A stretch of DNA of 39,582 nt from Acidobacteriaceae bacterium (GCA_025462925.1 JAOAPL010000255.1:1-39582); one strand, 5' to 3'. Shown: positions 15,827 to 39,178, numbered from the stretch's first letter. Program-made: numbers and translations. The notes: generated by a model not told the origin, from the letters alone.

Positions 15827-15830
15827 CCAT

Positions 15831-19889: not shown

Positions 19890-20059
19890 CCGAGGTTCCT
19901 GCCACACGCGCGCATCACCCTCTATGTTTTTTCCGGTTCTACCCTGGTACCAACAACGATGCCCCGAGACTAACTAACCATCGAGGCATTAAGGTCGCGA
20001 ATTACAAGATCGATACATCAAGGTGCAACTTTGACTTTTCGGATTCAGGAAGTAAGGCG

Positions 20060-21139
20060 ATGAGGAACCGGTATCTGTACCTGATTGTGGCGCTGTTCGT
20101 CGCGGTCTGTGTCTCCGCTATGGTAGTTGCCCGGCAGCATTATTGGGATTGGAGTGACATGGCGTTCCTATACCGTGTGCACGCTATTGCATACGGCACG
20201 AAGGCACAATGCAAAGCCCATCAGTACTTTTTCGAGCACGCCTCCAACCCATACGCATGTGATGTTGCCGCGGCCCGAATTGAATATGCTGCGATGGGGA
20301 TCTCCTACAAAGATCGCATCCAGAACTACACGCCTTTCGGTGATTGGTTGAATTGCGGAAAGAGGTGTACCTGGCAAGGTATGAGATTTCACTTCGACGA
20401 GGACGGTATCCCTATCGTCAACTATGACGGCAAGTACTACTACAACCCTGTCACAATCTCTATGTATGGATTGGCCATGTATGGCCGCTACATCGACGGA
20501 GACCGAGACGCGCAACGCGGGCTAATGGCCGCAGTGGCAAAGCTTATAAAAATGCAAGACTCGCGTGGGGCATTCCCCTATGAATTCGCTTATGGAACCT
20601 ATCGTTCCGGATGGGTGTCCGGCATGGCACAAGGCTTGGCATTAAGCCTTTTAGCTCGCGTCTATCACTTGACGGGTGATCCACATTACTTAGCTATCGG
20701 AGATAAGGCATTTGATCTCCTAGTTACCCCTTCATCGAATGGAGGGACACTGGATAATCTCTCGTATATTCGTGGTGGGAGTGCGAATGAGATCGTCTTC
20801 GAGGAATACCCCAGCCATCCTCCCGGATACACGTTGAACGGCTTCATGTTCGCTATTCTAGGGGTGTACGACTGGTCACAGGTACCTGCGGGAAATTCCA
20901 AAGCCGCGGCCATATACTTCGTCAAGGCTGTTCGCTCCTTACAGGTGATTCTGCCCTACTATGATCTTGGAGGATTTACGGCCTACGATTTGGGACACAT
21001 TACCAACCACAAGAAACCTTTGATCGGCGTCAACTACCATGCGACTCACGTATATCTGCTGCATGCATTAGTGTGCATCACCCGCGATCCGGTACTTCGC
21101 AAATACGAGCAACTCTGGGCGTCATACGTGCCCCAGTAA
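20060..21139 (+). CDS. D-glucuronyl C5-epimerase family protein, membrane-anchored
   Basis: Start at 20060 gives an N-terminal TM (MRNRYLYLIVALFVAVCVSAMVVA). RSGWVSGMAQGLALSLLARVYHLTGDPHYLAIGDKAFDLL is typical of the C5-epimerase C-terminal domain. Confidence 0.75.
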   Translation: MRNRYLYLIVALFVAVCVSAMVVARQHYWDWSDMAFLYRVHAIAYGTKAQCKAHQYFFEHASNPYACDVAAARIEYAAMGISYKDRIQNYTPFGDWLNCGKRCTWQGMRFHFDEDGIPIVNYDGKYYYNPVTISMYGLAMYGRYIDGDRDAQRGLMAAVAKLIKMQDSRGAFPYEFAYGTYRSGWVSGMAQGLALSLLARVYHLTGDPHYLAIGDKAFDLLVTPSSNGGTLDNLSYIRGGSANEIVFEEYPSHPPGYTLNGFMFAILGVYDWSQVPAGNSKAAAIYFVKAVRSLQVILPYYDLGGFTAYDLGHITNHKKPLIGVNYHATHVYLLHALVCITRDPVLRKYEQLWASYVPQ

Positions 21140-23194: not shown

Positions 23195-24451
23195 ATGCAA
23201 GGGCATCAGTTAAACGTGACTATGCTCGTCTCGGGCTTCCCCTGCGATGGCAAGCCGAAAAACGGTATTTTCAATCTCCGCGCAGTTAAAGCACTTCGGG
23301 AATTCGTAAACATCACCGTGATTCATTTGCGGACGTGGTTGCCCGATCGACCTACTGCTCAAATCTCGGAAGTGGAAGGTATTCCTGTAACCACAATTGC
23401 TGTTCCGCAGAGCCCTTGGGGGATGAGTATCAATGTTGCTCTATACCAATATTTGGGATGGCCTCAAGTCCGATCGCTAGTGCAAAACTGTGACATAGTT
23501 CATTCGGTGGGTACGCTGGCTGGTGTACTTGCCAGCACCTGGGCGCGCCGAACCCGCACACATCATGTGTTTCAGGCTACAGGCTCTGATATCAACGCAT
23601 TCCTCCCGCGGATGCGAGCGGCGCGTAGCGTTGCTGGATGGGAAAACCATCTACACGCTGTGGCTTGCAACAGCGAGGCTTTGGCAGCTGCATTTCTGGC
23701 GCTCTATCCGGGATTCAGAAATGTGCGCACCGTTTGGCGTGGAGTAGATCTAGACTCCTTCCATCCCTCAGGGCCTGTAGCGGGCCCCCTGGCCGATAAA
23801 CCTCCAGTGCGTTACACATTCCTGGGAGGTTTTGGCCTTGTTGCTCCACAGCTTTCCCCACTGTGGTTTGATGTGTCCGTAGAAAGATGCAGGAATCGCG
23901 CTCTTCCTTTCGGTGCGAATACGAAAGGAGGAGAAACTCTGCTGCAGGCATGGCAGGGAGCGGAAGACGAACTCGTGTCAAGGGGTGCATCTCTGTTAGT
24001 TCTAGGTTGCGAACCACCATATTATGACCGCATCCGCCGTTGGCAAGCAGGACTCAGGTATCCCGAAAGAGTTCACTTGGGCAGCTCCATTCGACCGGAG
24101 ATGGTTTCTGCTTACATTCGCGCCTCGGACGCGGTGCTGGTACCTAGTCTTCAGGAAGGACTGCCAAACGTTGCAGTCGAGGCTTCTGCGTGTGGCCGGC
24201 CAGTAATCGCAAGCAATGTAGGCGGGTTGTCGGAAGTTGTTGTGAATGGCGAAACGGGAGTTCTGCTGCCGGCTGGCGACGTTGCCGCTTGGAAGAATGT
24301 TCTGGTCTCGTACGCTGACCGGTTATCGTGCCTGCAAACGATGGGCAAACGCGCCAGACAGCGCACGGAAGCGTTATTTGATTCCCGCAACTATCCAGTC
24401 CGAATGTTGGAATTATACGAAGCCGCGCTCGGAGAACTACTACCGAACTAA
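23195..24451 (+). CDS. Family 4 glycosyltransferase
   Basis: VLVPSLQEGLPNVAVEASACGRPVIASNVGGLSEVVVNGETGVLLPAGD (GT-B C-terminal motif). Confidence 0.88.
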   Translation: MQGHQLNVTMLVSGFPCDGKPKNGIFNLRAVKALREFVNITVIHLRTWLPDRPTAQISEVEGIPVTTIAVPQSPWGMSINVALYQYLGWPQVRSLVQNCDIVHSVGTLAGVLASTWARRTRTHHVFQATGSDINAFLPRMRAARSVAGWENHLHAVACNSEALAAAFLALYPGFRNVRTVWRGVDLDSFHPSGPVAGPLADKPPVRYTFLGGFGLVAPQLSPLWFDVSVERCRNRALPFGANTKGGETLLQAWQGAEDELVSRGASLLVLGCEPPYYDRIRRWQAGLRYPERVHLGSSIRPEMVSAYIRASDAVLVPSLQEGLPNVAVEASACGRPVIASNVGGLSEVVVNGETGVLLPAGDVAAWKNVLVSYADRLSCLQTMGKRARQRTEALFDSRNYPVRMLELYEAALGELLPN

Positions 24452-24480
24452 TTCTCTTACTCCGGTTGATCAAAACTCCA

Positions 24481-25497
24481 ATGTCAATTAATGGTTCCCA
24501 ATTTCCCCCTTACCAGTGTCCTGTCCATAAGACGCGTTTGTCACAGAGCCGCGAATCGCTGGTTTGTACTCAAGGCCACCAATATCCGATACGAGCAGGT
24601 GTTCCGCGTTTCGTTCCTACATGCAACTACGCCCAAGCATTTGGAGCTCAATGGAAACGCTACAGGTTAACTCAACTAGATTCGTATACAGGTACGACAA
24701 TCACTCGGTCCCGATTGCAAAGGTGTCTTGGCCCAGCGTTGTGGGCGGCGTTGAAACAAATGCAAGTCCTAGAATGCGGATGCGGGGCGGGACGATTCAC
24801 CGAGGTACTGCTTGAAAAAGAGGCGACTGTCACGTCTCTTGACCTGTCCGATGCTGTCGACGCGAACTTCGAGAATTTTGCAGGTAGTGGCGGGCGACAC
24901 CGTGTGGCGCAGGCCGACATCCTCGGCCTTCCTTTTCCTCCAATGCAGTACGATATCGTGCTGTGCCTCGGAGTGGTTCAGCATACGCCTAACCCTGAGT
25001 CTGCCATCCGCAGATTATGGGACCAGGTCAAACCAGGAGGCTATCTCGTATTCGATCAGTACAGATATCGACTGTATCGATGTACAACGATATCCCCATT
25101 GTTCCGTCAGATTATCAAGCGGTTGCCAAGAGATATAGGCCTGCAATGTACAGCTAAATTGGTGAATTTAACCTTTCCAATTCTCACGCGCTTGCGCAAA
25201 TACCCGGTACTCGTTCGTTCCATTGGAAGGGTCGTTCCAGTCGCACACTACTTCTATTCGTATCCCGAACTGAATGAGAAGTTGCAGTATGAATGGTCCC
25301 TGCTCGATACGCACGATTCACTCTCGGATTGGTACAGGCACTACACCACGGTCGACCATACGCGGAGATTACTCAACCGACTGGGAGCTGACAACGTGGA
25401 ATGTTGGGAGGGGGGAAATGGTGTGGAAGCAAGGATCCAACGAGCGCCGATCAGTGCCCCTAACACGATGTCGCAACGACGGCTGACTGGCAGCTAG
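24481..25497 (+). CDS. Class I SAM-dependent methyltransferase with N-terminal Trm112-like zinc-binding segment
   Basis: YQCPVHKTRLSQSRESLVCTQGHQYPIRAGVPRFVP (Trm112-like); MQVLECGCGAGRFTEVLLEKEATVTSLDLSDAV (motif I); CLGVVQHTPNPESAIRRLWDQVKPGG. Confidence 0.85.
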   Translation: MSINGSQFPPYQCPVHKTRLSQSRESLVCTQGHQYPIRAGVPRFVPTCNYAQAFGAQWKRYRLTQLDSYTGTTITRSRLQRCLGPALWAALKQMQVLECGCGAGRFTEVLLEKEATVTSLDLSDAVDANFENFAGSGGRHRVAQADILGLPFPPMQYDIVLCLGVVQHTPNPESAIRRLWDQVKPGGYLVFDQYRYRLYRCTTISPLFRQIIKRLPRDIGLQCTAKLVNLTFPILTRLRKYPVLVRSIGRVVPVAHYFYSYPELNEKLQYEWSLLDTHDSLSDWYRHYTTVDHTRRLLNRLGADNVECWEGGNGVEARIQRAPISAPNTMSQRRLTGS

Positions 25498-25537: not shown

Positions 25538-26914
25538 GTGTCAAGTCACGTATTCATGCTGAATACTGGGGGAGCGCGCATCCGATTTGCAAGTAATACT
25601 GCAATTCTAGTGACTTCGCAGGTGGTTCGGTATGGTTTGACCTTAGCGACCTGGGCGATCATCGCAAGATCACTGGGTCCGCGAGTGCTCGGTGAGGTTC
25701 AGATCGCCTACATCTTGCCAGGCTGGGTATTGTTAGCGACCAACTTTGGATTGCCCCTGGCCAATATATATTTTCTGGGCAGGCAGGCGTATCCACTGTC
25801 GCAAATCTTAGGAAACGTGCTCCTCAGATGGGTGATCGAGTCGTGCGCGGTAGTCCCCTTGCTGCTGTTTGGCCGTGCACTAGTTCTGAAATATGTGCCA
25901 TTGAGCCCAGAGGTATATGCGGTTGTTGTTTGTTGGATCCCGTTGCAAATCTTGAACTCGTATCTGACCTCCATCCTTACGGCGCAAATGCGTTTTTACG
26001 CACAGTTCTGGATTAACGTGGTACAAGGAGTGTCCGTCATGATTGCGGTTCTGGCGGCTGCCGGCCCCCTTCGGTTGGGCGCACTCGGTGCGGTCAGAGG
26101 GCTGGTGGCGGCAACCGGAGTGGCGGTACTCTTCGAAATTTGGTTCCTGCGAGATGGGTTAGCGAAGCAGGGCATGAGGCCCCCATCGAAGCTGATCCGC
26201 GAATGTTTGCGATTTGGTAGCCGCGGCTATTTTGCAAATCTGGCTCAGTTCGTTACCTACCGGTTTGACACCTTCATCGTGAGCTACTTTTTAGGCATGA
26301 CTGCGCTGGGCATCTATGCAGCCGCTTACACAGCGGTGGAGTTGCTGGCTTACCTTCCCAATTGTCTCGCTACTATCATCTTTCCAGCTACTGCGGCATC
26401 CAGCATTATGGAAGCTAACTGGCGGACCGCTTTGGTCTCCAGGTTGACTTTCGCCTTCGTGTTTGTTGGATCGATATTGGGCGCTGCAGCTGCACCCTGG
26501 CTGTACCCGGCAATCTTAGGTTCGCAGTTTACTTATTCTGTTGTGCTTTTTTGGGTTTTACTGCCGGGCATGGCGATGCTGGCGGGTGCGAAAATCATCA
26601 CTGCTGACTTCCTCGGGCGAGGATTCCCGCAGTACGCGAGCCGGGGATCACTAGCAGGTATGGTTGCGATTGCCGTGCTTGATATCTGGCTGATACCCAA
26701 GTATGGGCTAATGGCTGCTGCTCTCAGCTCATCGTTCGTCTATGGCTGCCAGGCTGTGTACTACGTCAGATGTTTAGAGCAGGTTACAGGAATGGAGACA
26801 AGCGAACTGTTAGTTGCAACACGAGATGACTTAAGGACAGTTATGAACCTCTTGACAGGGCGAACACGCCCCTTATCTTTGCGTCTGCGCTCCTTATTCG
26901 CAACCCCAACCTAG
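25538..26914 (+). CDS. wzx: Oligosaccharide flippase (Wzx/MATE-like)
   Basis: Polytopic hydrophobic protein: RFASNTAILVTSQVVRYGLTLATWAIIARSLGPRVLGEVQIAYILPGWVLLATNFGLPLANIYFLGR...YRFDTFIVSYFLGMTALGIYAAAYTAVELL. Confidence 0.8.
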   Translation: MSSHVFMLNTGGARIRFASNTAILVTSQVVRYGLTLATWAIIARSLGPRVLGEVQIAYILPGWVLLATNFGLPLANIYFLGRQAYPLSQILGNVLLRWVIESCAVVPLLLFGRALVLKYVPLSPEVYAVVVCWIPLQILNSYLTSILTAQMRFYAQFWINVVQGVSVMIAVLAAAGPLRLGALGAVRGLVAATGVAVLFEIWFLRDGLAKQGMRPPSKLIRECLRFGSRGYFANLAQFVTYRFDTFIVSYFLGMTALGIYAAAYTAVELLAYLPNCLATIIFPATAASSIMEANWRTALVSRLTFAFVFVGSILGAAAAPWLYPAILGSQFTYSVVLFWVLLPGMAMLAGAKIITADFLGRGFPQYASRGSLAGMVAIAVLDIWLIPKYGLMAAALSSSFVYGCQAVYYVRCLEQVTGMETSELLVATRDDLRTVMNLLTGRTRPLSLRLRSLFATPT

Positions 26915-26980: not shown

Positions 26981-28894
26981 ATGTCGATCTTTTCTATTCA
27001 CTCGCCTCTGCCTGAGCATCTGGCCGCAACCCCATCGAAGAATCAGTCTCGACCAGCATGGATTGCCGAATTGGTGTCCGTCCAAGCAGTCTCGACGCCG
27101 GAAGCAATTGCTGTGGCCGATCAAGATCATGTGCTGAACTACGGAGAGCTGGATGGCCGAGCTCAGCGGTTGGCTCAACACCTGCGTACTCTGGGAGTCG
27201 GGCCCAATGTCGTTGTCGGACTCTGCTTGGCACGTTCAGTAGCCATGGTTGTGGGGGCACTGGGAATCCTCAAGGCGGGTGGAGCCTACCTGCCTCTGGA
27301 CCCCGCCTACCCGGCGACCCGCTTGGCTTTTCAATTGAGCGACGCGCAAGTTTCCATCGTGGTTACCGCGCAGTGCATGAGGGAACGATTGCCAGCCGGA
27401 GAATGGCGAGTAGTCGGATTGGATCCTGAAGGACGAGAGGCCAATTTGCAGACCAACTCTGATACTCCTGTACTGCCCGCAATCGAGGCTCATGAGGGAG
27501 ACCTGGCTTACGTGATTTACACATCCGGTTCAACTGGCCAACCCAAGGGTGTAGAGTTGACTCACGCTGGCTTAGAAAACCTAATATCTTGGCACCAACT
27601 GACGTTCGCAGTGAGACCGAGCGATCGGGCAACCCATCAGGCGAGCCCAGGTTTCGACGCTGCGGTATGGGAACTGTGGCCCTACCTCACCGCTGGGGCA
27701 AGCGTCCATATACCCAATGACGATACTCGCAGCAGTCCTGAGCTCTTTCGTGATTGGCTTGTGAAGCACGCGATTACTATCGCGTTTGCTCCCACACCGA
27801 TGGCCGAACAACTGATGCAACTGGAATGGCCCTCGAATACCGCCCTGCGCATTCTATTAACCGGAGCCGACACATTGCGTCATTACCCATCGGCAACGCT
27901 GCCCTTTGCAGTTGTGAATAACTATGGTCCCACCGAGTGTACGGTCGTAACGACATCTGGGACCATATCACCAGATGGACGTCCGGATCGCCTGCCGTCA
28001 ATTGGTCGGCCAATCACAAATATGCAGGTCTACATATTGGATGACAATTTGCGGCAAGTACAGGCTGGCACTCCTGGCGAACTGTACATTGGTGGTGTAG
28101 GTCTGGGGAGGGGCTATCGGAACCCGGATCTTACGGCCGAACGCTTTATTCCAAATCCTTTCAGCAAACAACCGGGCGCCCGTCTGTACAGAACAGGAGA
28201 CATGGCTTGCTCCCTGCCGGATGGTCAAATAGCATTCTTGGGTCGGACTGACGACCAAGTTAAAATCCGCGGCTATCGCATCGAAACGAGCGAGATTGCT
28301 ACTGCGCTTGATCGCCACCCCATGGTGCAAGCCAGTGTTGTTATAGCTCGAGAGGACACCCCAGGCGATAAACACCTAGTTGCATATATCGTGCCGAAAA
28401 CGAATGCAAGTCTCACAGACAAAGCACTGCGCGAATTTTTGCTTTTGAATTTGCCTGAATACATGGTTCCAGCCGCCTTTTTTCGTTTAGACAGCCTCCC
28501 CTTGAGCGCGAGCGGCAAGATCGATCGAAATGCGCTTCCAATGCCAACACAAGCGCATCCGCTGAGTGAAGACGACTACATTGCCCCACGTACGCCAGTG
28601 GAAGAACGTATTGCAGCAATTCTGACGAAGCTCTTGCGTTTGGATGGCGCGAGCGTGAATGACAATTTTTTTCTCTTGGGAGGGAACTCCCTTCTGGGAG
28701 CGCAAGTGATCGCGCGAGTCCGGGATGCTTTTGATGTAGAACTGCCCCTGCTAAGCCTTTTCGATCATCCGACAGTTGCTGAGCTGTCTGCGGAGATCGA
28801 GCAACTTCTGGTTGCCAAACTAGATGCAATGAGCGAAGACGAAGCGCGCTTGCGGCTCCAGCCAGCAACACTAAGACAGGTAAAGAATTCTTGA
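26981..28894 (+). CDS. NRPS adenylation-thiolation (A-T) didomain, predicted Leu-activating
   Basis: Core motifs: VIYTSGSTGQPKGVELTH (A3), NNYGPTE (A5), GELYIGGVGLGRGYRNPDLTAERF, LYRTGDMACSLPDGQIAFLGRTDDQVKIRGYRIE (A7/A8), SASGKIDRNALP (A10), NFFLLGGNSLLGAQVIARVRDAF (T). Confidence 0.93.
   Translation: MSIFSIHSPLPEHLAATPSKNQSRPAWIAELVSVQAVSTPEAIAVADQDHVLNYGELDGRAQRLAQHLRTLGVGPNVVVGLCLARSVAMVVGALGILKAGGAYLPLDPAYPATRLAFQLSDAQVSIVVTAQCMRERLPAGEWRVVGLDPEGREANLQTNSDTPVLPAIEAHEGDLAYVIYTSGSTGQPKGVELTHAGLENLISWHQLTFAVRPSDRATHQASPGFDAAVWELWPYLTAGASVHIPNDDTRSSPELFRDWLVKHAITIAFAPTPMAEQLMQLEWPSNTALRILLTGADTLRHYPSATLPFAVVNNYGPTECTVVTTSGTISPDGRPDRLPSIGRPITNMQVYILDDNLRQVQAGTPGELYIGGVGLGRGYRNPDLTAERFIPNPFSKQPGARLYRTGDMACSLPDGQIAFLGRTDDQVKIRGYRIETSEIATALDRHPMVQASVVIAREDTPGDKHLVAYIVPKTNASLTDKALREFLLLNLPEYMVPAAFFRLDSLPLSASGKIDRNALPMPTQAHPLSEDDYIAPRTPVEERIAAILTKLLRLDGASVNDNFFLLGGNSLLGAQVIARVRDAFDVELPLLSLFDHPTVAELSAEIEQLLVAKLDAMSEDEARLRLQPATLRQVKNS
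28055..28099 (+). repeat. 45-bp perfect inverted repeat, copy A (inside the A domain, encodes QVQAGTPGELYIGGV)
   Basis: caagtacaggctggcactcctggcgaactgtacattggtggtgta; its reverse complement occurs at 31026-31070. Confidence 0.95.
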
Positions 28895-28925
28895 TACCTG
28901 AAGTCACACATCTTTCAGAGGCCAC
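28677..28925 (+). repeat. Direct repeat copy 1: PCP C-terminal half plus start of the downstream C-domain gene
   Basis: About 86% identical by hand count over 171 bp to 31069 onward. It ends with the nearly perfect stretch aattcttgatacctgaagtcacacatctttcagaggcca. Confidence 0.85.
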
Positions 28926-29992
28926 ATGCAATCGCTGCTCGATCTCGCGGCGAACCCGCCCCCCGAGCATTCGACTTGCAGAGGGGACCGTTACTCCGAC
29001 TCTCAGTGGTGAGAGCAGGCGAGGCAGACTACAGGCTGATCATGACCGCACACCGGAGCATCGTCGATGGGGTATCTGTGTACCAGGTGTTTCTATCGGA
29101 ACTGGCACAGTTGTACGATGTCTTCTCCACCGGCAAGGTATCTCCACTTCCGCAGCGGCCCATTCAGTACGCCAATTATGCTTGTTGGCAGCGCGAGTTG
29201 CTGGCAGGGGGGAATTGAAAAGGCAAGTGGAATATTGGCGGACGCGCCTTGCAGGAGAGCTTCCTGTCTTACAGTGGCCCGCGGACCACGTGCGTTCGGC
29301 TGTTCAGACGTTTCGGGGTGCAATCAAATCCTTCTCATTGCCGGCCAATTAGGCAACACTGTCAAAGAATCGTGCCGGAGGGAAGGTGTCACATTATTTA
29401 CGTTCCTTCAGGCCGCGTTCACCTCACTTCTTCATAGCTACACGAGAAGGACGACATCATCGTGGGCACTTTTTCCCGGGCTGGTCGCAAACGATCCGAA
29501 GCTCAGGGGTTGCTTGGTCACTTTCTCAACCCTGTAGCTCTGCGAATTAACCTTTCTGAAGACCCATCATTCAGTGAGTTGTTGAGACAAACGCAACGAG
29601 TAACTTCCGAGGCTATGTCCCATGACGACGTGCCGATCGAGTTCCTCGCGGGAGAGCTCATGGCCGAACAAGATCCGAGCCGCCATCCTTTATTTACTGT
29701 GGCGATATCTCTGCAGCCACCCATGTCGGGCCTCCATCCAGTTTGGTCGGTTACATCGATGGACGCCGAGAGTGGCGGAGCATTTTGGGATCTATATCTC
29801 GCGTTCATCGAACAGCAAACCGGATGGATAGGACGTGTGCAATACAATCCCGACCTGTTTGAAACGCCAACAATCATTCGGTTCGTAGAGGATATTAAGA
29901 CTGTGCTGGAATCTGCAGCAATCAATCCCTTGCAACAATTGTCACAACTCCGGCCCTCGAGAATGGATCGCCAAGGAATCAGCGAATACTAA
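28891..29992 (+). pseudogene. Decayed NRPS condensation domain (internal deletion, frameshifts and a nonsense codon)
   Basis: C-domain blocks lie in successive different frames: FDLQRGPLLRLSVVRAGEADYRLIMTAHRSIVDGVSVYQVFLSELAQLYDVF, then LKRQVEYWRTRLAGELPVLQWPADHVRSAVQTFRGAIKSFSLPAN*, then REGVTLFTFLQAAFTSLLHSYTR, then DDIIVGTFSRAGRKRSEAQGLLGHFLNPVALRINLSEDPSF...VQYNPDLFETPTIIRFVEDI. All are paralogous to the intact 31286-32758 gene. Confidence 0.88.
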
Positions 29993-30055
29993 AGAGAGCC
30001 TGATCGGCACTCTCCCCATCTGATGATCGCAGTAATCCAATCAAAGCGCGAATTC

Positions 30056-30988
30056 ATGTCCTCGCCGGATACGCTCCCGCAGAACTTAAGTCATCTTTGG
30101 TCGAATATGACCGTGGACAGGTATGCGCAATTTGCAAAAACTATGGGATCGAAGGTGGTCAAACAGAACGATGTCTGGTGGAAAAGAGGACACCTCTTTT
30201 GCTATAAACCTCTACTGCCTTTCAAAAAATACGACATAGGGAAGGTAGGAGAAGCGTTTAGCAAGTTCGACGTATGCCAATACGGAGTACACCCTGGACA
30301 AGCGCACAATTCGTACCTCAACTTCATCGTCTTTGAGGACCTCTGCCAATATGAGATCCGAAAAATGCGAAAGAGCTCACAACGGAATCTCAAGACCGCC
30401 ATGAATAAGGATGTTGTGGTCCGGCGCCTCGTGGACGAAAAGGAGTTTTGTGCGAAAGCATACAACGTTTATCTTTCCTTTTATCAGAGAAGTAAGTATG
30501 GATTCCGAGCTGATCGGACGCAGAAAAGTGGTTTTGTACGGTGGTCGAGTGCGCTGTTCCAGTTTCCAGAACTTGTCGTACTGGGTGCATTCTCAGGTCA
30601 GAAACTGGTGTCATTTGAGATTGGTTGTCTCCTGGACAACACAATTGTTCTAAATACGAGCGTCCACTCAGACATAGGACTGAGACTCCGGGCCCCTGAC
30701 CTCCTGCTGCATTATTGGCGGCTCAGTGCGCGGGAATCGGGCCGTATAAGAGCCATCTATGATGGCGCGCTCGCAGACAGGCCTGGTGTTAATGAGTTCA
30801 AAATTCACAGGGGTGGGCGTGCGGTAGCCTTGCCCGCCTTTCTCCAGATTAATCCAGTTCTCCTGTGGCTCATCAGGAAAATGAGTGCAAGCCTTTACAA
30901 ACGGTTACGCGGCCTTGGACCGGATGAGATCGCTTCCACAAGAAGATCCCAAAACGCGAATAATGACTGCGGTAAATCACTTGATTAG
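30056..30988 (+). CDS. FemAB/GNAT-superfamily acyltransferase-like protein, located between the two C-domain copies
   Basis: IRKMRKSSQRNLKTAMNKDVVVRRLVDEKEFCAKAYNVYLSFYQRSKYGF...VLGAFSGQKLVSFEIGCLLDNTIVLNTSVHSDIGLRLRAPDLLLHYWRLSARESGRIRAIYDG. An alternative start is 30023. Confidence 0.6.
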   Translation: MSSPDTLPQNLSHLWSNMTVDRYAQFAKTMGSKVVKQNDVWWKRGHLFCYKPLLPFKKYDIGKVGEAFSKFDVCQYGVHPGQAHNSYLNFIVFEDLCQYEIRKMRKSSQRNLKTAMNKDVVVRRLVDEKEFCAKAYNVYLSFYQRSKYGFRADRTQKSGFVRWSSALFQFPELVVLGAFSGQKLVSFEIGCLLDNTIVLNTSVHSDIGLRLRAPDLLLHYWRLSARESGRIRAIYDGALADRPGVNEFKIHRGGRAVALPAFLQINPVLLWLIRKMSASLYKRLRGLGPDEIASTRRSQNANNDCGKSLD

Positions 30989-31289
30989 CGAAGTTCCGCG
31001 CAATTACTTGAGCTGGTCGCCGGATTACACCACCAATGTACAGTTCGCCAGGAGTGCCAGCCTGTACTTGGGAGGAAATTCCCTTCTGGGAGCACAAGTG
31101 ATCGCGCGAGTCCGAGATACTTTTAACATCGAATTGCCGTTACTCAGTCTTTTCAATAGTCCTACAGTTGCTGAGCTGTCTGCGGAGATCGAGCAGCTTC
31201 TTGTTGCCAAACTGGAGGTAATGAGCGAAGACGAAGCGCTACAGCTTGCGGCTCCATCCAGCAACGCTAGGCAGGAAATGAATTCTTGA
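30963..31289 (+). pseudogene. Chimeric PCP remnant: short novel N-terminus and antisense A-domain scrap, joined to the C-terminal half of a PCP carrying GGNSLL
   Basis: Open frame MTAVNHLISEVPRNYLSWSPDYTTNVQFARSASLYLGGNSLLGAQVIARVRDTFNIELPLLSLFNSPTVAELSAEIEQLLVAKLEVMSEDEALQLAAPSSNARQEMNS. Carrier helix 1 is missing. Confidence 0.7.
31026..31070 (-). repeat. 45-bp perfect inverted repeat, copy B (scrap at the PCP-remnant junction)
   Basis: tacaccaccaatgtacagttcgccaggagtgccagcctgtacttg is the exact reverse complement of 28055-28099. Confidence 0.95.
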
Positions 31290-31320
31290 TACCTGAAGTC
31301 ACACATCTTTCAGAGGCCAA
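31069..31320 (+). repeat. Direct repeat copy 2: PCP C-terminal half plus start of the intact C-domain gene
   Basis: See copy 1 at 28677. Shares ttgggagg...atcgcgcgagtccg...gttgctgagctgtctgcggagatcgagca. Confidence 0.85.
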
Positions 31321-32758
31321 GCGCAAACTGCTGGAGAAGTACTTGCGCGGTGACCTCGAGCGAAATGGAGCCGACGATCGTGGCATCGCTCCTCGTCCTT
31401 ACAGTGGGCCGGCGCACCTGTCGCTGGCTCAAGAACAGCTTTGGTATCGGTCCCGGGCCACGGCCAGTATGCCGCTCCTCTATAACGAGTCCATTACGAT
31501 TCACCGTAATGGTCCCTTGGACTTGAGCGTCCTCAAGCGATGCATTCTTGAAATCCTGAGACGTCATGAAAGTTGGCGCACAAGCTTCGAGAACAAGAAT
31601 GGAAATCCGGTCCAGGTGGTCCACCCAACACCCAATTCGATTTCGTTGCCTTTATTCGACATCCGAGGTCTTCCGAAGCATGAGCGGGAGGCTGAAGCCT
31701 TGCGCCTGGCGGCTCATGAACTTCAGCGTCCTTTCCACCTGAGCGAGTGTCCCCCGGTCCGATTCCGATTGGCTAGGTTAAGCGATGAAGAATATTGGCT
31801 CTTTGTTTTCGCCCATCAAATCATCATCGACGGTGTGACCGCCTACAATGTCTTCTTTCTGGAATTGGCAAGGCTTTACGAGGCGTTTTCCATCGGCCAG
31901 TCAACTCCATTGCCCGAAATACCCATTCAGTACTCTGACTATGTCGATTGGCAGCGCCGATGGTTCACAGAAAAAGTTTTTGCGAAGCAAATGGTGCATT
32001 GGAGAAACCAACTCTCTGGCGCGCTGCCGGTTCTTCAGTGGCCGATGGATTTCCCTCGTCCTGCCACCCAAACATTCAATGGTAGGATCTATCGCTTCGC
32101 GCTGTCCAAGAATGTGGCGGCAGCGGCGAGAAGATTGAGCCAACGCTACAACGTAACGCTTTTTGTGACGCTCATGGCCGCTTTCATCGCGCTGCTGTAT
32201 CGCTATACGGGCCAGAGCGACATCATAGTTGGCACTGTTACCCCTGCGGGCCGCGATCGATCAGAGGTCCAGTGTCTCATGGGCTACTTCCTCAATCCCG
32301 TCGGACTGCGCTCTGATTTATCCGATGATCCGACGTTTGCAACAATACTGTCGCGAACTCAAGACGTGATCTTAGGAGCGCTCGCAAACGACGATGTGCC
32401 TTTTGAGTCCGTCTTCAGATCTCTTGGAATCAAACCGGAACCAAGCCGCAATCCGGTTTTTCAGGTTGCGGCGTCTCTTGAACCTGCTGTCCCAGACGTT
32501 GGCCCGGGCTGGGACCTCACGCCGATGGACGTTCAGAGCGGCGGAGCGAGGTGGGACCTCTACTTCGTCTGGGAAGACAGACCTGTCGGTATCACTGGTC
32601 GAGTGCAATACAACCCTGACCTTTTCAAACTGACCACTGTCACGGGACTGGTGGAGGATTTTGCATCTGTACTTGAGACCATCGCGCACAATCCGTGGAT
32701 GAAGGTTTCAGAGATATCGCGATTGGCTATCCGGAACCAGCTTCCAATCAATCAGTAA
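31286..32758 (+). CDS. Stand-alone NRPS condensation domain with non-canonical HQIIIDG motif
   Basis: Begins at TTG overlapping the upstream TGA (MIPEVTHLSEAKRKLLEKYLRGD); AHLSLAQEQLWYRSRATASMPLLYNESITIHRNGPLDLSVLKRCILEILRRHESWRTSF; FAHQIIIDGVTAYNVFFLELARLYEAF; VGTVTPAGRDRSEVQCLMGYFLNPVGLRSDLS; VQYNPDLF. Confidence 0.9.
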   Translation: MIPEVTHLSEAKRKLLEKYLRGDLERNGADDRGIAPRPYSGPAHLSLAQEQLWYRSRATASMPLLYNESITIHRNGPLDLSVLKRCILEILRRHESWRTSFENKNGNPVQVVHPTPNSISLPLFDIRGLPKHEREAEALRLAAHELQRPFHLSECPPVRFRLARLSDEEYWLFVFAHQIIIDGVTAYNVFFLELARLYEAFSIGQSTPLPEIPIQYSDYVDWQRRWFTEKVFAKQMVHWRNQLSGALPVLQWPMDFPRPATQTFNGRIYRFALSKNVAAAARRLSQRYNVTLFVTLMAAFIALLYRYTGQSDIIVGTVTPAGRDRSEVQCLMGYFLNPVGLRSDLSDDPTFATILSRTQDVILGALANDDVPFESVFRSLGIKPEPSRNPVFQVAASLEPAVPDVGPGWDLTPMDVQSGGARWDLYFVWEDRPVGITGRVQYNPDLFKLTTVTGLVEDFASVLETIAHNPWMKVSEISRLAIRNQLPINQ

Positions 32759-32761
32759 GTC

Positions 32762-35335
32762 ATGACGCCCGAAAATCAATCCTTGTGGCTAGATAACCCT
32801 GATCATTTGAACGCAACAAGCGTGGGCCAATCGATGCACCTTCTGGACAGGATCAGCCGAGCATATTCGGAGCTGTCTGCCCAGGACGCATTCGTGGTGC
32901 CGGGGTGGTTTGCAGATCAACGGTCATGGGTGCGCGACCCGCAAAATTCGAACAGCGCCATTTTTAATTTTCCGCTAGCTTTGGAAATTGCTGGCACATT
33001 GAACCACGAGGCCATGCGACACGCACTTCAGGAATTGCAAGCTCGCCAGCAGGTGTTTCGTAGCGTATTCCGTTTCCTGGATGACCAATTGATCCAGATC
33101 GTACTGCAGCAGCGACCGGTTGATATTTCGGTGACTGATCTTACAGCTCTCGGGGAAGCACCAGGAAAAAGAGATGCGGAATTTCGGCGAATCGCGAATG
33201 AAGAAGCGGGCCGTGCTTTCGATCTAAGATACGAACCCGCTTTGCGAGCGCGTCTGCTGCAATTTTCGCCGGATAAACATGCCCTCTTACTGACGACCCA
33301 TCACCTCATCTGCGACGATTGGTCCACGGGCATTCTGCTTCGGGAGTTGTTTGGAATTTATGAATCGTTCTTAGGGCGTAACTCAAGTCTCCAGCCTGTG
33401 CCGAGCGGATTCCAATATGCCGATTTCATCCGATGGCATGAGAAGCAGATGCAAGGGACAGGAATGGAATCACGACTCTCGTTCTGGAAACGCCAACTCG
33501 CTGGCGGGACCGAACCTCACCTTCTGGAACCCGATCATCCTCGCCCATTGCGACGCACCTTTGTAGGGGCGACAGCGCGACACATCCTGTCTGAAGAGTT
33601 AACAAATTCACTAAAGACGCTCAGTCAGCATGAAAGGGTAAGTCTCTTCATGACGTTGCTGGCGGGCTTCCAGTGCATTCTCCATCGTTTCAGCGGTAGT
33701 AATAACATTGCGGTTGGCTCGTGTGCTGCGAATCGCCGCTTGACAGAAGTGGAAGGACTGATTGGTCGTTTTGCCAATGACCTCGTGGTTCGCACAGATT
33801 TATCAGGAAATCCGACATTCCGCGACTTGCTCGCCCGGGTTCGCAAGTCCGCCCTCACATCTTACTCGTACCAGGATCTGCCTTTTGCGAGGCTGCTTGA
33901 AGAAATCGATCCGCGAAAAGATTTGAATTGCAACCGTCTGTTCCAGGTAATGTTCATTTTGCAGGATTCTCCAAAAGGTGGAATTCAATCCCCGCGGTTA
34001 ACGATAAATCGAGTTCCACTCGACGTGGGGACCGCCAAATATGATTTGGCCGTGTTCTTGACCATCGGAAGACAATTGGAGATCGCACTTGAGTACAACA
34101 CTGACCTGTTTGAAGCGGCCACCATTCGGCAAATTTTCGAAGACTATCGCGCCGTGCTCGAAGCAATGTGCAACAGCCCAGAAACACGAGTCGGTGAGCT
34201 AGCGATTCAGAAACAGCGAGCGGCAATCAACAGCCAGCAGCTTGAAGGTGTCCGCTTTTCAGGGCACGTGGCTCCAAGCGGCCCGATTGAATCGCGACTG
34301 GTTGAGCTCTGGGAATCGGTTCTCGACAAGCGGCCTATCGGTGTGAATGACGATTTCTTTGAATTGGGTGGAGACTCGCTCCGTGCCGCACGTTTATTTG
34401 CGCAAATTGAACAGAAATTCGAGCGCTCGATTCCTGTGGGCGCTCTTTTCCAGGCCCCGACAATAGCAACTCTGGCTAAACTCGTTTCGGTGGCGGACTC
34501 GAACGACGCGTGCGTTGTCACAATACAGGCTGGCGGAACCCTCCCACCTCTGTTCTGCCTTCCTGGGCAAACAGGGAGCGTACTGATGTACCGGAGTCTG
34601 GCACAGCACCTGGGTTCGGACCAGCCGGTTTACGGTTTGCAGCCTCAAGGGCTTGACGGCAAACAGCCTCCCCTTACGCGAATCGAGGATATGGCAGCAA
34701 ACTTTCTCAAGAAAATCCAGTTGATTCAATCGCAGGGGCCATATTTTTTGGCCGGATACTGCATGGGAGGTACTATAGCTTTAGAAATGGCGCAGCAGCT
34801 CCGAAGGCAGGGACAAACGGTAGGTTTGCTTGCCATGTTGGATACTTACAACTGGGGGCTGCTTAAGCGCACATCGCTAGTCGACGATTTCTATTTCAGA
34901 GTGCAGCAATGGTGGTTTAGTTGGCGCGGCGGCATGCGATGGAAAGAGTTGCGCGGCCGCCGAGACCCGTACTCCGTGCTTCTTGTGGCTCTGCCAGGAG
35001 CCTTGCCATGGAGGAAGAAATCCTTGAAGAGACTTAGCGAGTTCTGGACTAAGCCAGCCGCCCAACTAGTCTCGGAATGCAGTGCGCATGCCGCATACAG
35101 TTATGTTCCGCAATTATACCCGGGACGAATTCTACATGTGAGCCCGGCGAGACAGTGCGCGAGATACAAGAGGCCAGAGTTCAGCTTGAGATCCTTCGCG
35201 AAAGACGGTCTAGAGGAATTCTTTGTCCGCGGGTATCCCGCGCAAATTCTGGCGGAGCCACTGGTGCTAGTTCTAGCGGCCAAACTGAGAGCTTGGATTG
35301 ACGAAGTGGCTGCGAAAGACTTTTACCCGGACTGA
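32762..35335 (+). CDS. NRPS C-T-TE protein (terminal condensation, carrier, thioesterase)
   Basis: C domain HHLICDDWSTGILLRELFGIYESF; T domain VNDDFFELGGDSLRAARLFAQIEQKF; TE PPLFCLPGQTGSVLMYRSLAQHLGSDQPVYGLQPQGLDG...YFLAGYCMGGTIALEMAQQL. Confidence 0.93.
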   Translation: MTPENQSLWLDNPDHLNATSVGQSMHLLDRISRAYSELSAQDAFVVPGWFADQRSWVRDPQNSNSAIFNFPLALEIAGTLNHEAMRHALQELQARQQVFRSVFRFLDDQLIQIVLQQRPVDISVTDLTALGEAPGKRDAEFRRIANEEAGRAFDLRYEPALRARLLQFSPDKHALLLTTHHLICDDWSTGILLRELFGIYESFLGRNSSLQPVPSGFQYADFIRWHEKQMQGTGMESRLSFWKRQLAGGTEPHLLEPDHPRPLRRTFVGATARHILSEELTNSLKTLSQHERVSLFMTLLAGFQCILHRFSGSNNIAVGSCAANRRLTEVEGLIGRFANDLVVRTDLSGNPTFRDLLARVRKSALTSYSYQDLPFARLLEEIDPRKDLNCNRLFQVMFILQDSPKGGIQSPRLTINRVPLDVGTAKYDLAVFLTIGRQLEIALEYNTDLFEAATIRQIFEDYRAVLEAMCNSPETRVGELAIQKQRAAINSQQLEGVRFSGHVAPSGPIESRLVELWESVLDKRPIGVNDDFFELGGDSLRAARLFAQIEQKFERSIPVGALFQAPTIATLAKLVSVADSNDACVVTIQAGGTLPPLFCLPGQTGSVLMYRSLAQHLGSDQPVYGLQPQGLDGKQPPLTRIEDMAANFLKKIQLIQSQGPYFLAGYCMGGTIALEMAQQLRRQGQTVGLLAMLDTYNWGLLKRTSLVDDFYFRVQQWWFSWRGGMRWKELRGRRDPYSVLLVALPGALPWRKKSLKRLSEFWTKPAAQLVSECSAHAAYSYVPQLYPGRILHVSPARQCARYKRPEFSLRSFAKDGLEEFFVRGYPAQILAEPLVLVLAAKLRAWIDEVAAKDFYPD

Positions 35336-35556: not shown

Positions 35557-37527
35557 ATGTCTTTCTTAATCTTCCGAAATGCTTCGAATGACACAAGTGA
35601 GCCAAAGAGCAAGCGGTCATGGAATTTTAGGAGCTATCGCAAGCTGCTCATTCTGTGCTCGCATATTTCCCTGGTGGTTCTCGCCTACTATGCCAGCTTT
35701 CTTCTGCGATTCGATTTCTCTCTCAATGATTCCGATGGTCTGGTCTTCCTGCAAACGCTGCCGCTGATTCTGCTGGTGAAGCTCTCACTCTTCTACTACT
35801 TCAGTCTCTTGAGCGGCTGGTGGCGATATGCGGGAATGAGCGATCTGTTGGATATTACCAAAGCGGCTGTCGGGAGTGCACTGGTTGTTTACCTGCTCCG
35901 TCCTACGCCGTACCCCCGCTCGGTTATCGCGATTGACATGATGCTCACCATCATCGTGATCGCGGGGGCGCGGTTTGCAGTCAGAGCATATACAGAGCAT
36001 GCTCAAAAGTTCGCCCCGCAAAAAAAGACATTAATCGTGGGCGCGGGTCAGGCAGGGAGCACGATCGTGCGCGAATTGAAGCGTAATCCTGAGCTCGATT
36101 ACAAGCCCATTGGTTTTGTCGATGACAACCGCACGAAGAAAGGATTAAAGATCCATGGCGTGAAAGTACTGGGAAGCACTGATGTTCTATCCAAACTGAT
36201 TTTCGATAACAAAGTAGAATGCGTGCTGATCGCCATACCTTCTGCAGGAGGAAAGCAGGTTCAGCAGATCATTAGCAAGTGCCGTGAATGCAAGGTTGAT
36301 CTGAAGATCCTTCCAGCCGTGGGTGAGCGAATTGGCCGCAGAAGCTCAGTGAGTCAAATGCGAAATGTCCAGGTCGAGGATCTGCTCGGCCGCGAACAAG
36401 TGACCCTTGACGTCAAGAACATCAGTGCGAAGTTCAAAGACAAAGTACTGCTCATTACTGGCGCTGGAGGCTCGATTGGCTCGGAGCTCGTGCGTCAAGT
36501 GGCTAAATTCCATCCCAGGAGAATAGTTTTATTCGAGAGATCTGAGAATGACCTCTTCAAGATCTGTATGGAGATGGGGACGAGATTTCCTGAACTCGAT
36601 TGCCATCCGGTAGTCGGGGATATCTTGGACGTTCGTCTGCTACGTGATGTGTTTGCTTTACACCGGCCGGATTCGGTTTTCCACGCTGCTGCGTACAAAC
36701 ACGTCCCATTGATGGAGCGCAATTGCTTCCAAGCGGTGACCAATAATGTTTTCGGCACCTACAACGTCGCGCTTGTCGCCAAGCAATATCAGGTAGGGGA
36801 CTTCGTAATGATCTCCTCGGATAAAGCGGTGAATCCCACCAACATCATGGGTCTGACAAAGCGAGTGGCAGAGCTCATCACCCTCAGCCTACAAAACCAG
36901 AAACACACCCGATTCATGTCAGTGCGATTTGGCAATGTATTGGGAAGCAATGGGAGTGTGTTGCCCATCTTCCAGCAGCAAATCGCTCAGGGCGGCCCAG
37001 TGACGGTGACCGATCCTGAAGCTACGCGCTATTTCATGACGATTCCCGAAGCCGTCCAGCTGGTTCTACAGGCCTCAACCATGGGACGCGGAGGAGAAAT
37101 ATTTGTGCTGGACATGGGAGACCCAGTGCGCATTGTCGATCTCGCGAAAAACTTGATTCGTCTTTCGGGGATGGAACCCGACAAAGACATCACCATTGTT
37201 TTCACAGGGCTTCGACCCGGAGAAAAACTCGTCGAAGAGCTCAGACTGGATGGAGAGGGAATCAGCCGGACCACTCACGAGAAAATTCGAGTGTTAAATG
37301 GTGGAACTTCGCATTTCGATCAAGTACTAGTTTCACTCGACGAACTGTCTAGACTTCTGGAGGCGAAGAATGTCTACGGCCTTGTCACCAAATTGAAGAG
37401 CATCGTTCCCGAATACGTTCCGAGTGATGAAATTCTGTGTCTCTGTGAAATTGACCGCCATGACATGGCTTTTGCATACAAGCGCCAATCCGCTGATCTG
37501 ATGCAGCCTGTGCGGCCTGCTGCCTAA
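35557..37527 (+). CDS. Membrane-bound nucleoside-diphosphate-sugar 4,6-dehydratase (CapD/WbpM/PglF-like)
   Basis: N-terminal TM helices; KTLIVGAGQAGSTIVRELKRNPELDYKPIGFVDDN; LLITGAGGSIGSELVRQVAKFHPRRIVLFERSENDLF; MISSDKAVNPTNIMGLTKRVAE. Confidence 0.92.
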   Translation: MSFLIFRNASNDTSEPKSKRSWNFRSYRKLLILCSHISLVVLAYYASFLLRFDFSLNDSDGLVFLQTLPLILLVKLSLFYYFSLLSGWWRYAGMSDLLDITKAAVGSALVVYLLRPTPYPRSVIAIDMMLTIIVIAGARFAVRAYTEHAQKFAPQKKTLIVGAGQAGSTIVRELKRNPELDYKPIGFVDDNRTKKGLKIHGVKVLGSTDVLSKLIFDNKVECVLIAIPSAGGKQVQQIISKCRECKVDLKILPAVGERIGRRSSVSQMRNVQVEDLLGREQVTLDVKNISAKFKDKVLLITGAGGSIGSELVRQVAKFHPRRIVLFERSENDLFKICMEMGTRFPELDCHPVVGDILDVRLLRDVFALHRPDSVFHAAAYKHVPLMERNCFQAVTNNVFGTYNVALVAKQYQVGDFVMISSDKAVNPTNIMGLTKRVAELITLSLQNQKHTRFMSVRFGNVLGSNGSVLPIFQQQIAQGGPVTVTDPEATRYFMTIPEAVQLVLQASTMGRGGEIFVLDMGDPVRIVDLAKNLIRLSGMEPDKDITIVFTGLRPGEKLVEELRLDGEGISRTTHEKIRVLNGGTSHFDQVLVSLDELSRLLEAKNVYGLVTKLKSIVPEYVPSDEILCLCEIDRHDMAFAYKRQSADLMQPVRPAA

Positions 37528-37786
37528 TCGCTCCGGCGCGTCATCGTGTCAGTCGGGGTTCTCCCATTTTTAGTTTTCGGCGTCGCCCAGCCAGTGCTGG
37601 TTCAGCACGGCTTGATTCACACGTTGCGGGCGCTTCGATATTTGGCAGGCTACGTGTTCGCCGTTCGCGACCGTGCTGTAGCGGGCGCTGTTTTGCCGTC
37701 TGCGTCTCGGAGATTCCATCTCCTCGGTAAACCCTCCGCGACTGTGAGTGACATCGCGTTCGTGCACAGTCTGCCCATCATCGCGT

Positions 37787-39178
37787 ATGGCACGTAACTT
37801 TTCTAAACTATTGCTGATCGGTACTGCAGGCTTCTTGGGCGTGGTGATTGCACGTGAGCAGTGGCTTTTTCTAATCCCTGTAGCCGCAATTCCTCTTGTA
37901 TTGCTGTGGCCGGTACAGATGTCCCTGGGAATGTTTGCATTCATTCTCCCGTTCGACTCCGTTGCAGCACTTGACAAAGAAGGCATCGGGACCACGCTAA
38001 ACTTTATTATCGGCGCTGCCTCAGGGCTTATTCTGCTAACGACAGGGATTGTGACAAGACGATTGGAGCGGCCACCGCGAGCTGCCCTGTGGTGGGGGCT
38101 GTTTGTTCTCTGGAGTGCCCTGACCGTGCTGTGGGCATTAGAGCCCGAGACAGCATTGGGCCGCCTTCCAACGGTTTTCGCTTCTTTCCTTCTCTATGTT
38201 GCTGCTGTTTGTTTTCGCATGACACGCAAAGAGCTCAGCGGGGTGCTTCTGTTAGCTATGCTCGGCGGGATCATTGCTGCTGGTTATGCCTCCTTGAATT
38301 TTATGCGGGCTGGCGGGGGCGAGAGAGCTACGCTGGTGCTGGGTGAGAGGACAACAAATCCGAATCAGTTTGCCGCAATCATGCTTCTACCGCTGTCATT
38401 GGCTCTTGGCAGATTCATCTCGTCTCGAGGCTGGGTCAACAGAATAGCCATGATGGCCTCTGTCGCTGTGATTGCGTTTGCCATCCTGCTTTCTATGTCG
38501 CGAGGCAGTCTGATCGCTGTCGGTGCATTGATTGTAGTTTATGTTTATAGGATCGGTGTTCACCGGCGCATGGTTCTTGCGGTTTCCGTTCTGATACTGC
38601 TGCTCTTCGCAATGCCAGACTTATTCTTTACACGTGTGCAGGGGGGCATCATTAGCAGGGCCGCAGGCCGGTTTGATATCTGGCAAGTAGGATTGACAGC
38701 CTTTAAGCATTATGGCATTTTCGGGGCAGGCCTGGACAATTTTCCTGTCGCCTACGACAAGTTTGTTGGAGACGCACCGCGATTCCCTGGCTACCGCAAC
38801 AACCCACACAACATTTATCTCGGGATTTCAGTTGAAATGGGGATTGTCGGACTCCTGTTATTCTTGGGTGCTGTGAGATCACAACTCCGAGCGGTGCAGC
38901 GCTTCCAGGCTGACGCCAACGGATTGGTCCCCCCAGTGGTGGTGGCCTGTGAAGCCGCCTGTTGGGGAATGCTTGTTGCTGGGTTCTCCGGCAGTTTCGT
39001 TTGGAACAAGGTTTTTTGGCTGTCATGGATTTTGCTGGCGATTGCCGTCCGGGTAGTTTATCGAGAGAAGGCTGCTTGTGACAGTGCTGGCACTATTGAA
39101 ACGCGGCTACCGCGAGTCGTCGTTGGGCAATATGCCCGAGTGGCTTCGCATCCAATCGGGACGAATTCTTTCAGGTAG
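37787..39178 (+). CDS. O-antigen ligase/polymerase family protein (Wzy/WaaL-like)
   Basis: Polytopic membrane protein; LVLGERTTNPNQFAAIMLLPLSLAL...FAILLSMSRGSLIAVGALIVVY...HYGIFGAGLDNFPVAYDKF...RNNPHNIYLGISVEMGIVGLLLFLGAV. Start is the ATG at 37787 rather than the track start at 37748. Confidence 0.85.
   Translation: MARNFSKLLLIGTAGFLGVVIAREQWLFLIPVAAIPLVLLWPVQMSLGMFAFILPFDSVAALDKEGIGTTLNFIIGAASGLILLTTGIVTRRLERPPRAALWWGLFVLWSALTVLWALEPETALGRLPTVFASFLLYVAAVCFRMTRKELSGVLLLAMLGGIIAAGYASLNFMRAGGGERATLVLGERTTNPNQFAAIMLLPLSLALGRFISSRGWVNRIAMMASVAVIAFAILLSMSRGSLIAVGALIVVYVYRIGVHRRMVLAVSVLILLLFAMPDLFFTRVQGGIISRAAGRFDIWQVGLTAFKHYGIFGAGLDNFPVAYDKFVGDAPRFPGYRNNPHNIYLGISVEMGIVGLLLFLGAVRSQLRAVQRFQADANGLVPPVVVACEAACWGMLVAGFSGSFVWNKVFWLSWILLAIAVRVVYREKAACDSAGTIETRLPRVVVGQYARVASHPIGTNSFR

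Follow-up and report, generated by a model that had tools for sequence, protein, structure and literature searches.

A predicted leucine-activating NRPS within a Wbp/Vim-like surface-polysaccharide locus of Acidobacteriota, and its possible role as an aminoacyl donor

What does a nonribosomal peptide synthetase (NRPS) do in the middle of a locus for surface polysaccharide? The question is raised by a stretch of 39,582 nucleotides from an Acidobacteriaceae bacterium (JAOAPL010000255.1, hereafter the window), which is the whole of contig C291 of a metagenome-assembled genome (MAG; G000) that is 79% complete. Profile scans of the open reading frames (ORFs) of the window show a single long polysaccharide locus on the plus strand, headed by a LuxR-type regulator and a NusG-like factor; by Pfam, the NRPS genes come after Wzx (25538) and before WbpM/CapD (35557) and a Wzy-type protein (37748). 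GC content across the locus is 0.51-0.54, with the exception of the putative gene FemAB2 (0.487) and a fragment of a T domain; at 0.53-0.54 the NRPS genes equal their neighbors, so that a foreign origin inferred from composition was rejected. An Rfam scan of the window gave no RNA family matches, and an 82-residue ORF at the contig end (39312-39560) has no family match. The genes for sugar synthesis, assembly and export, some of them with orthologs noted from a near-complete MAG of the same genus, Acidobacteriales bacterium RYN_6 (G001; contig JAOAPE010000008.1), are:

5111-5749, plus strand: NusG-like antitermination factor heading the locus (PF02357, E 2.5e-17; G001 ortholog 70% identical)
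5844-7217, plus strand: UDP-sugar 6-dehydrogenase, WbpA or UDP-glucose type (PF03721/PF00984/PF03720)
7442-9682, plus strand: Wzc-type chain-length/tyrosine kinase protein (GNVR, AAA_31, Wzz)
9766-10950, plus strand: DegT aminotransferase, WbpE-like (PF01041, E 2e-119; G001 ortholog 71% identical)
10986-12611, plus strand: WbpB-WbpD fusion of MocA oxidoreductase and hexapeptide acyltransferase in a single ORF (PF01408 and PF00132)
12642-13823, plus strand: PglE/PseC/ArnB-like 4-aminotransferase (PF01041; best NCBIfam matches ArnB/PseC, below cut-off)
13813-14541, plus strand: PglC-type initiating sugar transferase (PF02397, E 2e-54)
14405-15826, plus strand: GT4 glycosyltransferase (profile scan)
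15813-16976, plus strand: WbpI-like protein of the UDP-GlcNAc 2-epimerase family (PF02350, E 3e-113)
17443-18888, plus strand: VimE-like deacetylase (NF053580, E 2.4e-13 over residues 103-422, below equivalog cut-off)
18882-19889, plus strand: FemAB1, candidate VimA-like aminoacyltransferase (PF13480, E 5e-5; TIGR03019, E 3e-12, below cut-off)
19712-21139, plus strand: D-glucuronyl C5-epimerase family protein (PF06662, E 5e-51)
21188-23092, plus strand: AsnB/WbpS-type amidotransferase (TIGR03108, E 5e-151, below cut-off; TIGR01536, above cut-off)
23195-24451, plus strand: GT4 glycosyltransferase (profile scan)
24466-25497, plus strand: SAM methyltransferase (PF08241)
25538-26914, plus strand: Wzx-type flippase (PF01943, E 1e-15)
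35557-37527, plus strand: WbpM/PglF-type 4,6-dehydratase (PF02719, E 3e-116)
37748-39178, plus strand: Wzy-type polymerase/ligase (PF04932, E 4e-19)

The C5-epimerase probably starts near 20055, as the alignment of its G001 ortholog begins at residue 116. The methyltransferase has no counterpart in the G001 locus. WbpB and WbpD, fused in the window, are separate ORFs in three other genomes (G314, G422 and G312).

The sugar side of this locus recalls the Wbp/Vim pathway of Porphyromonas gingivalis and Tannerella forsythia, with which it appears to share WbpA/B/D/E, WbpI, a VimE-like protein, an acyltransferase related to TIGR03019 and a WbpS-type enzyme (PMC7468200). In that pathway, the proposed role of VimE is deacetylation at C-2, after which VimA attaches Ser or Gly to the liberated amine and WbpS forms the uronamide, so that a 2,3-diamino uronic acid ends up aminoacylated at its C-2 amine; its authors also remarked on the match of VimA to TIGR03019 and on the presence of similar genes in exosortase loci (PMC7468200). 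The UDP-sugar dehydrogenase at 5844 (which fits WbpA or the UDP-Glc type), WbpB and WbpD (the fusion at 10986) and WbpE (9766) are all in the locus, and the VimE-like protein retains the CE4-like motifs SHDVD, HGS, GFRAG and LWH. The latter and FemAB1 are, however, only distant relatives of their Wbp/Vim equivalents and score below equivalog cut-offs (49.5 bits against 440 for the VimE-like protein with NF053580), as does the AsnB/WbpS-type enzyme at 21188 (504.6 bits against 816.9 with TIGR03108). Since the gene set resembles an experimentally based pathway (PMC7468200), Wbp-derived amino sugars are plausible acceptors for an amino acid. A further amine may be on offer: WbpM and the 4-aminotransferase should give a 4-amino sugar, the sole hexapeptide transferase in the window scan is the WbpD part of the fusion, and no separate PglD-type acetyltransferase was found among the scanned window ORFs or the recognized ORFs of the G001 locus, which suggests the 4-amine as a second possible acceptor. 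The P. gingivalis and T. forsythia loci contain no NRPS, and VimA alone sets the amino acid (PMC7468200); the window system, in contrast, has in addition A-T, C and C-T-TE proteins, a cytochrome P450 and a phosphopantetheinyl transferase (PPTase; for both see below), the C5-epimerase and the Wzx/Wzy set.

The NRPS proteins encoded in the window are:

26981-28894, plus strand: A-T protein (Pfam A domain, E 1e-78, plus T; code DAWFLGNVVK, holo-site GGNSL; 60% identical to G001 ortholog)
31286-32758, plus strand: stand-alone C protein (C2) with motif HQxxxDG (PF00668, E 1e-78)
32762-35335, plus strand: C-T-TE protein (Pfam E values 1e-81 for C, 7e-17 for T and 5e-29 for TE), with an HHxxxDD C domain, a GGDSL T domain and a GYCMGG TE domain in which YPA replaces the catalytic His

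With Pfam matches far above chance, the three lie collinearly between Wzx and WbpM/Wzy as a preliminary description of this DNA had stated, and its observation that the sole A domain is in the first protein, the C-T-TE having none, also holds by Pfam. The A-domain code was the same in all eight homologs of a first comparison and in 11 of 12 in a later one, the remaining protein reading EAWFLGNVVK; it is the commonest Leu code, is also seen where the final product holds 3-hydroxyleucine, and predicts leucine as the substrate. The holo serine is retained in the T domains and the C domain of C-T-TE reads HHLICDD, retaining HHxxxD. In the stand-alone C, which reads HQIIIDG, the second His of HHxxxDG is gone; the same position is HQ or HE in two Verrucomicrobia and HL in G001, with HH kept in G002, so that the loss, common to G001 and Verrucomicrobia, characterizes much of this C family and does not reflect local decay. 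The nearest solved relatives of the stand-alone C in the PDB, Txo2/Txo1, are not decisive as to its subtype.

G001 carries the same locus, with most sugar-gene proteins 56-78% identical to those of the window, and its A-T (60%), C (38%) and C-T-TE (45%) follow directly after Wzx, with neither FemAB2 nor a remnant; phylogenetic trees pair the A-T proteins of the two genomes (99/99). WbpM and Wzy are placed elsewhere within the G001 locus, and the unchanged position of the NRPS after Wzx despite this move argues that it is a real, retained part of the locus. About 5 kb beyond its C-T-TE, G001 encodes a P450 and an Sfp-type PPTase. Both are present and intact on a second contig of G000, C226 (84-85% and 50% identical to the G001 proteins, respectively; P450 at 12209-13486), where gene order follows G001 starting with the gene that separates C-T-TE from the P450. 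On the strength of this synteny downstream of C-T-TE, a P450 and a dedicated PPTase very probably belong to the NRPS of the window, encoded past the end of its contig, and the minimal assembly line of A-T, C and C-T-TE pictured in the preliminary description should be enlarged accordingly. NovH/NovI and NikP1/NikQ are examples of free-standing A-T and P450 pairs in which an amino acid is hydroxylated on its carrier; the present set resembles them in its architecture and single amino acid code and differs from them in its polysaccharide locus, stand-alone C and A-less C-T-TE. In the dlt system for D-alanylation of teichoic acids, a surface polymer receives its amino acid by way of adenylation and a carrier; the window shares adenylation plus carrier in a surface-polymer setting and differs by C and TE domains and a Gram-negative polysaccharide, and no DltB-type MBOAT was matched by Pfam among the window ORFs scanned.

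Between A-T and the stand-alone C lies a stretch with the following features, of which the condensation-domain remnant and the truncated T are absent from the preliminary description:

28891-29992, plus strand: psi-C1, a dead condensation-domain remnant in pieces (frames 2-1-3-2)
30023-30988, plus strand: FemAB2, possible GNAT-type protein of putative family (GC 0.487)
31026-31070, minus strand: inverted, perfectly matching copy (45 bp) of the A-domain DNA at 28055-28099, either a rearrangement scar or an assembly junction
31067-31289, plus strand: C-terminal part of a truncated second T (87% DNA identity to the T of A-T)

Some 130 residues are missing from the N-terminus of psi-C1, whose three longest pieces share 50-59% identity with the C protein of G001 and 44-49% with C2; it is probably a relic of a G001-type C, and C2 was rejected as the ortholog of the G001 protein, to which psi-C1 is the closer of the two. 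The inverted copy and the truncated T abut with a 4-base overlap. On the simplest reading of this arrangement, the original C would have died and a second T'-C2 segment entered by recombination, with FemAB2 acquired between the two, though the inverted 45-bp junction may instead stem from assembly. The question of the scar leaves the presence of A-T, C and C-T-TE unaffected, as G001 shows the set independently. As to the two FemAB/GNAT-like genes of the preliminary description, FemAB1 is borne out by PF13480 and TIGR03019, whereas FemAB2 has no Pfam family match even at E 1. Its structure model is poor (pLDDT 35) and the fold was not used; homologs (47-49%) occur in only two other genomes of 397 (G027 and G360), with no NRPS genes near them in the readable stretches. 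With so few homologs, none near an NRPS, and no copy in G001, FemAB2 was discarded as a core part of the system.

The association of NRPS and polysaccharide genes extends beyond the genus. The C-T-TE proteins of the window, G001 and G312 group in a single clade (100/98), separate from the C-T-TEs of stand-alone cassettes, and all three are encoded in Wbp/VimE-like/FemAB/AsnB loci; in G312 the C-T-TE (51%) has no A-T adjoining, and the same contig carries, at a distance of about 175 kb, a second polysaccharide locus that encodes a Leu-code A-T together with a P450-C-A-T-TE fusion. Beside the FemAB and C-T-TE genes of G312 (L079, 17195-20000, and L080, 1-453) are also a 2-hydroxyacid dehydrogenase, a PEP-mutase-family protein and an ATP-grasp-like protein, possibly a pathway for a phosphonate or hydroxyacid substituent. 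Following the lead from G312, 11 more loci were chosen only by TE similarity and ORF size (L214, L215 and L234-L252, in G201, G225, G388, G328, G010, G014, G271, G198, G423, G218 and G317), and all 11 combine Wzc-like genes and a PglC-domain transferase with a Leu-type A-T and with a P450 that is either fused to the NRPS or next to it; an acyl ligase was also noted among them. Locus L232-L233 likewise combines Wzc, a PglC-domain transferase, an acyl ligase, a Leu-type A-T and a P450-NRPS, and one related locus that was annotated further encodes Poly_export, an AAA_22 ATPase, an acyl ligase, an acyl-CoA dehydrogenase, Wzy, sulfotransferases and a GH10 enzyme. NusG homologs head 10 of the 12 related loci and were not found in G317, nor in G423, whose contig ends first. 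At least two of NusG, Wzc and PglC are present in 12/12 of these loci against 1/18 other NRPS loci (p 1.5e-7, a guide only, since the control stretches measured at most 20 kb and those of the 12 loci up to 40 kb, and since independence of the loci cannot be assumed). In the A-T tree the sugar-locus label is clustered more than in shuffles, which fits one or two origins. Counted with the second locus of G312, the pairing of such an A-T with polysaccharide operons is seen in 12 loci beyond those of G000 and G001.

The pairing is not universal. VimE orthologs (47-50%) in G314, G264 and G422 sit in Wbp/VimE loci with no NRPS genes nearby, and window-type A-T and P450 are absent from these genomes, two of which are incomplete; the NRPS is therefore an optional add-on to the Wbp/Vim polysaccharide. 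Relatives whose exopolysaccharide locus lacks the NRPS, with random insertion points, had been named beforehand as evidence against a functional link: loci without it exist, although in G000 and G001 the NRPS occupies the same place. Conversely, A-T, P450, C, C-T-TE and PPTase form a cassette on their own amid unrelated genes in Verrucomicrobia MAGs, and an Acidobacteria gp18 MAG has A-T, P450 and C-T-TE outside a polysaccharide locus.

In the window, the thioesterase has Cys and Asp with YPA in place of His after the last strand, and thus departs from the canonical Ser/Cys-Asp-His triad; in a model of T-TE (mean pLDDT 81), whose best fold matches are NRPS T-TE and TE structures, the YPA loop directly follows the last strand, where His is expected. 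The TEs of the window, G001 and G312 and 11 stand-alone T-TEs all have a Cys nucleophile and Y-P or D-P at the position of the catalytic His, in another T-TE Arg takes the place of Cys and His is likewise missing, and four large NRPSs are Cys/His-less as well, whereas His is present in 21/21 Ser-type TEs with a complete end. ObiF1 and SulM (PDB 6n8e, 8w2d) resemble the window TE in their fold and in the Cys of a GxCxG elbow, and AB3403 (4zxh) aligns with Cys at its nucleophile position; ObiF1 and SulM TEs, however, terminate small-molecule NRPSs, and it is the window subfamily that has Y-P or D-P at the His position (PMC6668435, PMC11298585). Open-licence papers held no clear precedent for TEs without the catalytic His. 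With the window left out, 6/14 loci of the Cys-type class have a FemAB homolog within 12 kb, against 0/18 Ser/His stand-alone T-TEs (p 0.003); the figures become 5/13 against 0/18 (p 0.008) when one near-duplicate is dropped and 3/11 against 0/18 (p 0.045) once G001 and G312 are excluded as well. AsnB genes are near 8/14 loci of the class and 2/18 of the Ser type. A Cys/His-less TE does not by itself denote sugar transfer, since the Verrucomicrobial TEs are also His-less and have no sugar genes. A module recurring in L172, L174, L176, L171, L177 and L043 consists of an FAD oxidoreductase, an ATP-grasp-like protein, FemAB, a protein of about 483 residues and a T-TE (Cys, no His), together with an AsnB-type protein, a homocysteine-synthase-like enzyme, an acyl/aminoacyl ligase and a 2-hydroxyacid dehydrogenase; the L174 and L176 copies include an exosortase. 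In L187, L186 and L042, Ser-type and His-less T-TEs are encoded close together in the same locus.

Gene content, synteny, the Leu code, the TE motif and the enrichment of the neighborhoods together suggest a Wzx/Wzy-type surface-polysaccharide locus of the Wbp/Vim kind in which the NRPS serves as an aminoacyl-donor module, placing a leucyl or 3-hydroxyleucyl group on an amino sugar of the polymer, a reading whose truth and falsity we hold to be evenly balanced. The order of events might be as follows. Wbp enzymes would make a 2,3-diacetamido uronic acid, from which the VimE-like enzyme would take off one acetyl group; the VimA-like FemAB1 could put an amino acid on the freed amine, and the AsnB/WbpS enzyme would amidate the carboxylate. 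L-Leu would be loaded by A-T onto its own T domain and, by comparison with P450s paired with A-T proteins elsewhere, probably be hydroxylated on the carrier by the P450 of C226. The stand-alone C, its catalytic His lost, is probably a docking or shuttle partner, and C-T-TE would take over the residue, its Cys-type, His-less TE passing it to an amine and not to water. The receiving amine may be that of the Wbp/Vim sugar or the 4-amine of the WbpM/aminotransferase sugar, borne by a nucleotide sugar or a lipid-linked repeat unit, and the last transfer could instead be carried out by FemAB1. The decorated unit would then be flipped by Wzx and polymerized by Wzy. That the NRPS product is attached to the polysaccharide had been proposed at the outset; retention of the NRPS in the locus and the plausible Wbp amino sugar acceptors favor this, while the attachment itself is what we infer. 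Extended to the recurrent NRPS-polysaccharide hybrids of Acidobacteriota, the reading would have their polymers carry leucyl, 3-hydroxyleucyl or short peptidyl groups, with the His-less Cys TE as a transferase to amino sugars, a generalization that we put forward tentatively.

Several observations pull the other way. The stand-alone cassettes in Verrucomicrobia (AV52, AV16, AV43) and in Acidobacteria gp18 (AA62), homologous yet outside polysaccharide loci, point to an ordinary small-molecule NRPS; FemAB1 does not need an NRPS, as Wbp/Vim loci without one exist; C-T-TE has no A domain to load its T; and the matches of VimE, FemAB1 and AsnB stay below equivalog cut-offs. The product could accordingly be a free small (lipo)peptide, perhaps a dipeptide containing 3-hydroxyleucine, co-regulated with the polysaccharide and at most held non-covalently in the matrix. 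Release of free products is what NRPSs usually do, related A-T/P450/C sets occur in G085 and G054, and the acyl-CoA ligase and acyl-CoA dehydrogenase of some related polysaccharide loci recall lipopeptide pathways. We nevertheless regard a free peptide as less likely, given that C-T-TEs from Wbp/Vim loci form a clade, that the NRPS keeps its place behind Wzx and that Wzc/PglC genes accompany such systems in 12 further loci; moreover, a gene for a peptide exporter was not found among the scanned window ORFs, which included only part of the small ones. Far less credible is that the NRPS, or the 28.9-31.3 kb stretch, is a decaying insertion with no present function: the frameshifts and missing N-terminus of psi-C1, the truncated second T, the inverted A-domain copy and the second His gone from the stand-alone C would fit such decay, but A-T, C2 and C-T-TE retain their full length as well as intact A motifs and T serines, the His loss is common to G001 and Verrucomicrobia, and an intact set exists in G001, as do an intact P450 and PPTase on C226.

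The locus also invites comparison with exosortase/PEP-CTERM loci (TIGR03019 FemAB, TIGR03108 amidotransferase, TIGR03098 AMP-forming ligase), with which it has polysaccharide genes, FemAB, an AsnB-type enzyme and an adenylating ligase in common and whose related representatives here also carry a T-TE of the window's TE subfamily; it differs by having no exosortase and by its true condensation domains and Leu-code NRPS A domain. The product might then be the anchor by which an exosortase attaches PEP-CTERM proteins to polysaccharide, comparable to the linking sugar of type IX secretion. The Wbp/Vim linking sugar of Porphyromonas is such an anchor, and its authors raised the PEP-CTERM possibility (PMC7468200); G001 has an exosortase and eight PEP-CTERM matches and G000 one, and loci with exosortase, FemAB, AsnB and a Cys/His-less T-TE share the same gene order. 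This account seems improbable to us, as no exosortase is found in the window and no PF09721 match in the G000 assembly (79% complete), the exosortase of G001 belongs to a separate polysaccharide locus on another contig, and G314 and G264 have the Wbp/VimE locus with no exosortase match. Exosortase linkage was hence set aside as the main reading, the locus being without exosortase.

A search of open-licence papers returned nothing relevant on NRPSs in polysaccharide biosynthesis: the parts are known, but the search brought up no Leu/P450 NRPS embedded in polysaccharide loci of the Wbp/Vim or another export type. If the aminoacyl-donor reading is true, NRPSs would also decorate surface polysaccharides, beyond making secreted small molecules, and a carrier-protein route to amino-acid-bearing sugars would exist alongside the VimA route. 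It would make concrete which small moiety is attached to sugars by polysaccharide loci bearing FemAB and AsnB, including those with exosortase, and would single out a subfamily of His-less TEs whose chemistry is accessible with purified protein. In summary, the pairing of a small NRPS with a polysaccharide operon is repeated in relatives, so that Acidobacteriota may decorate their surface sugars with NRPS-made amino acids.
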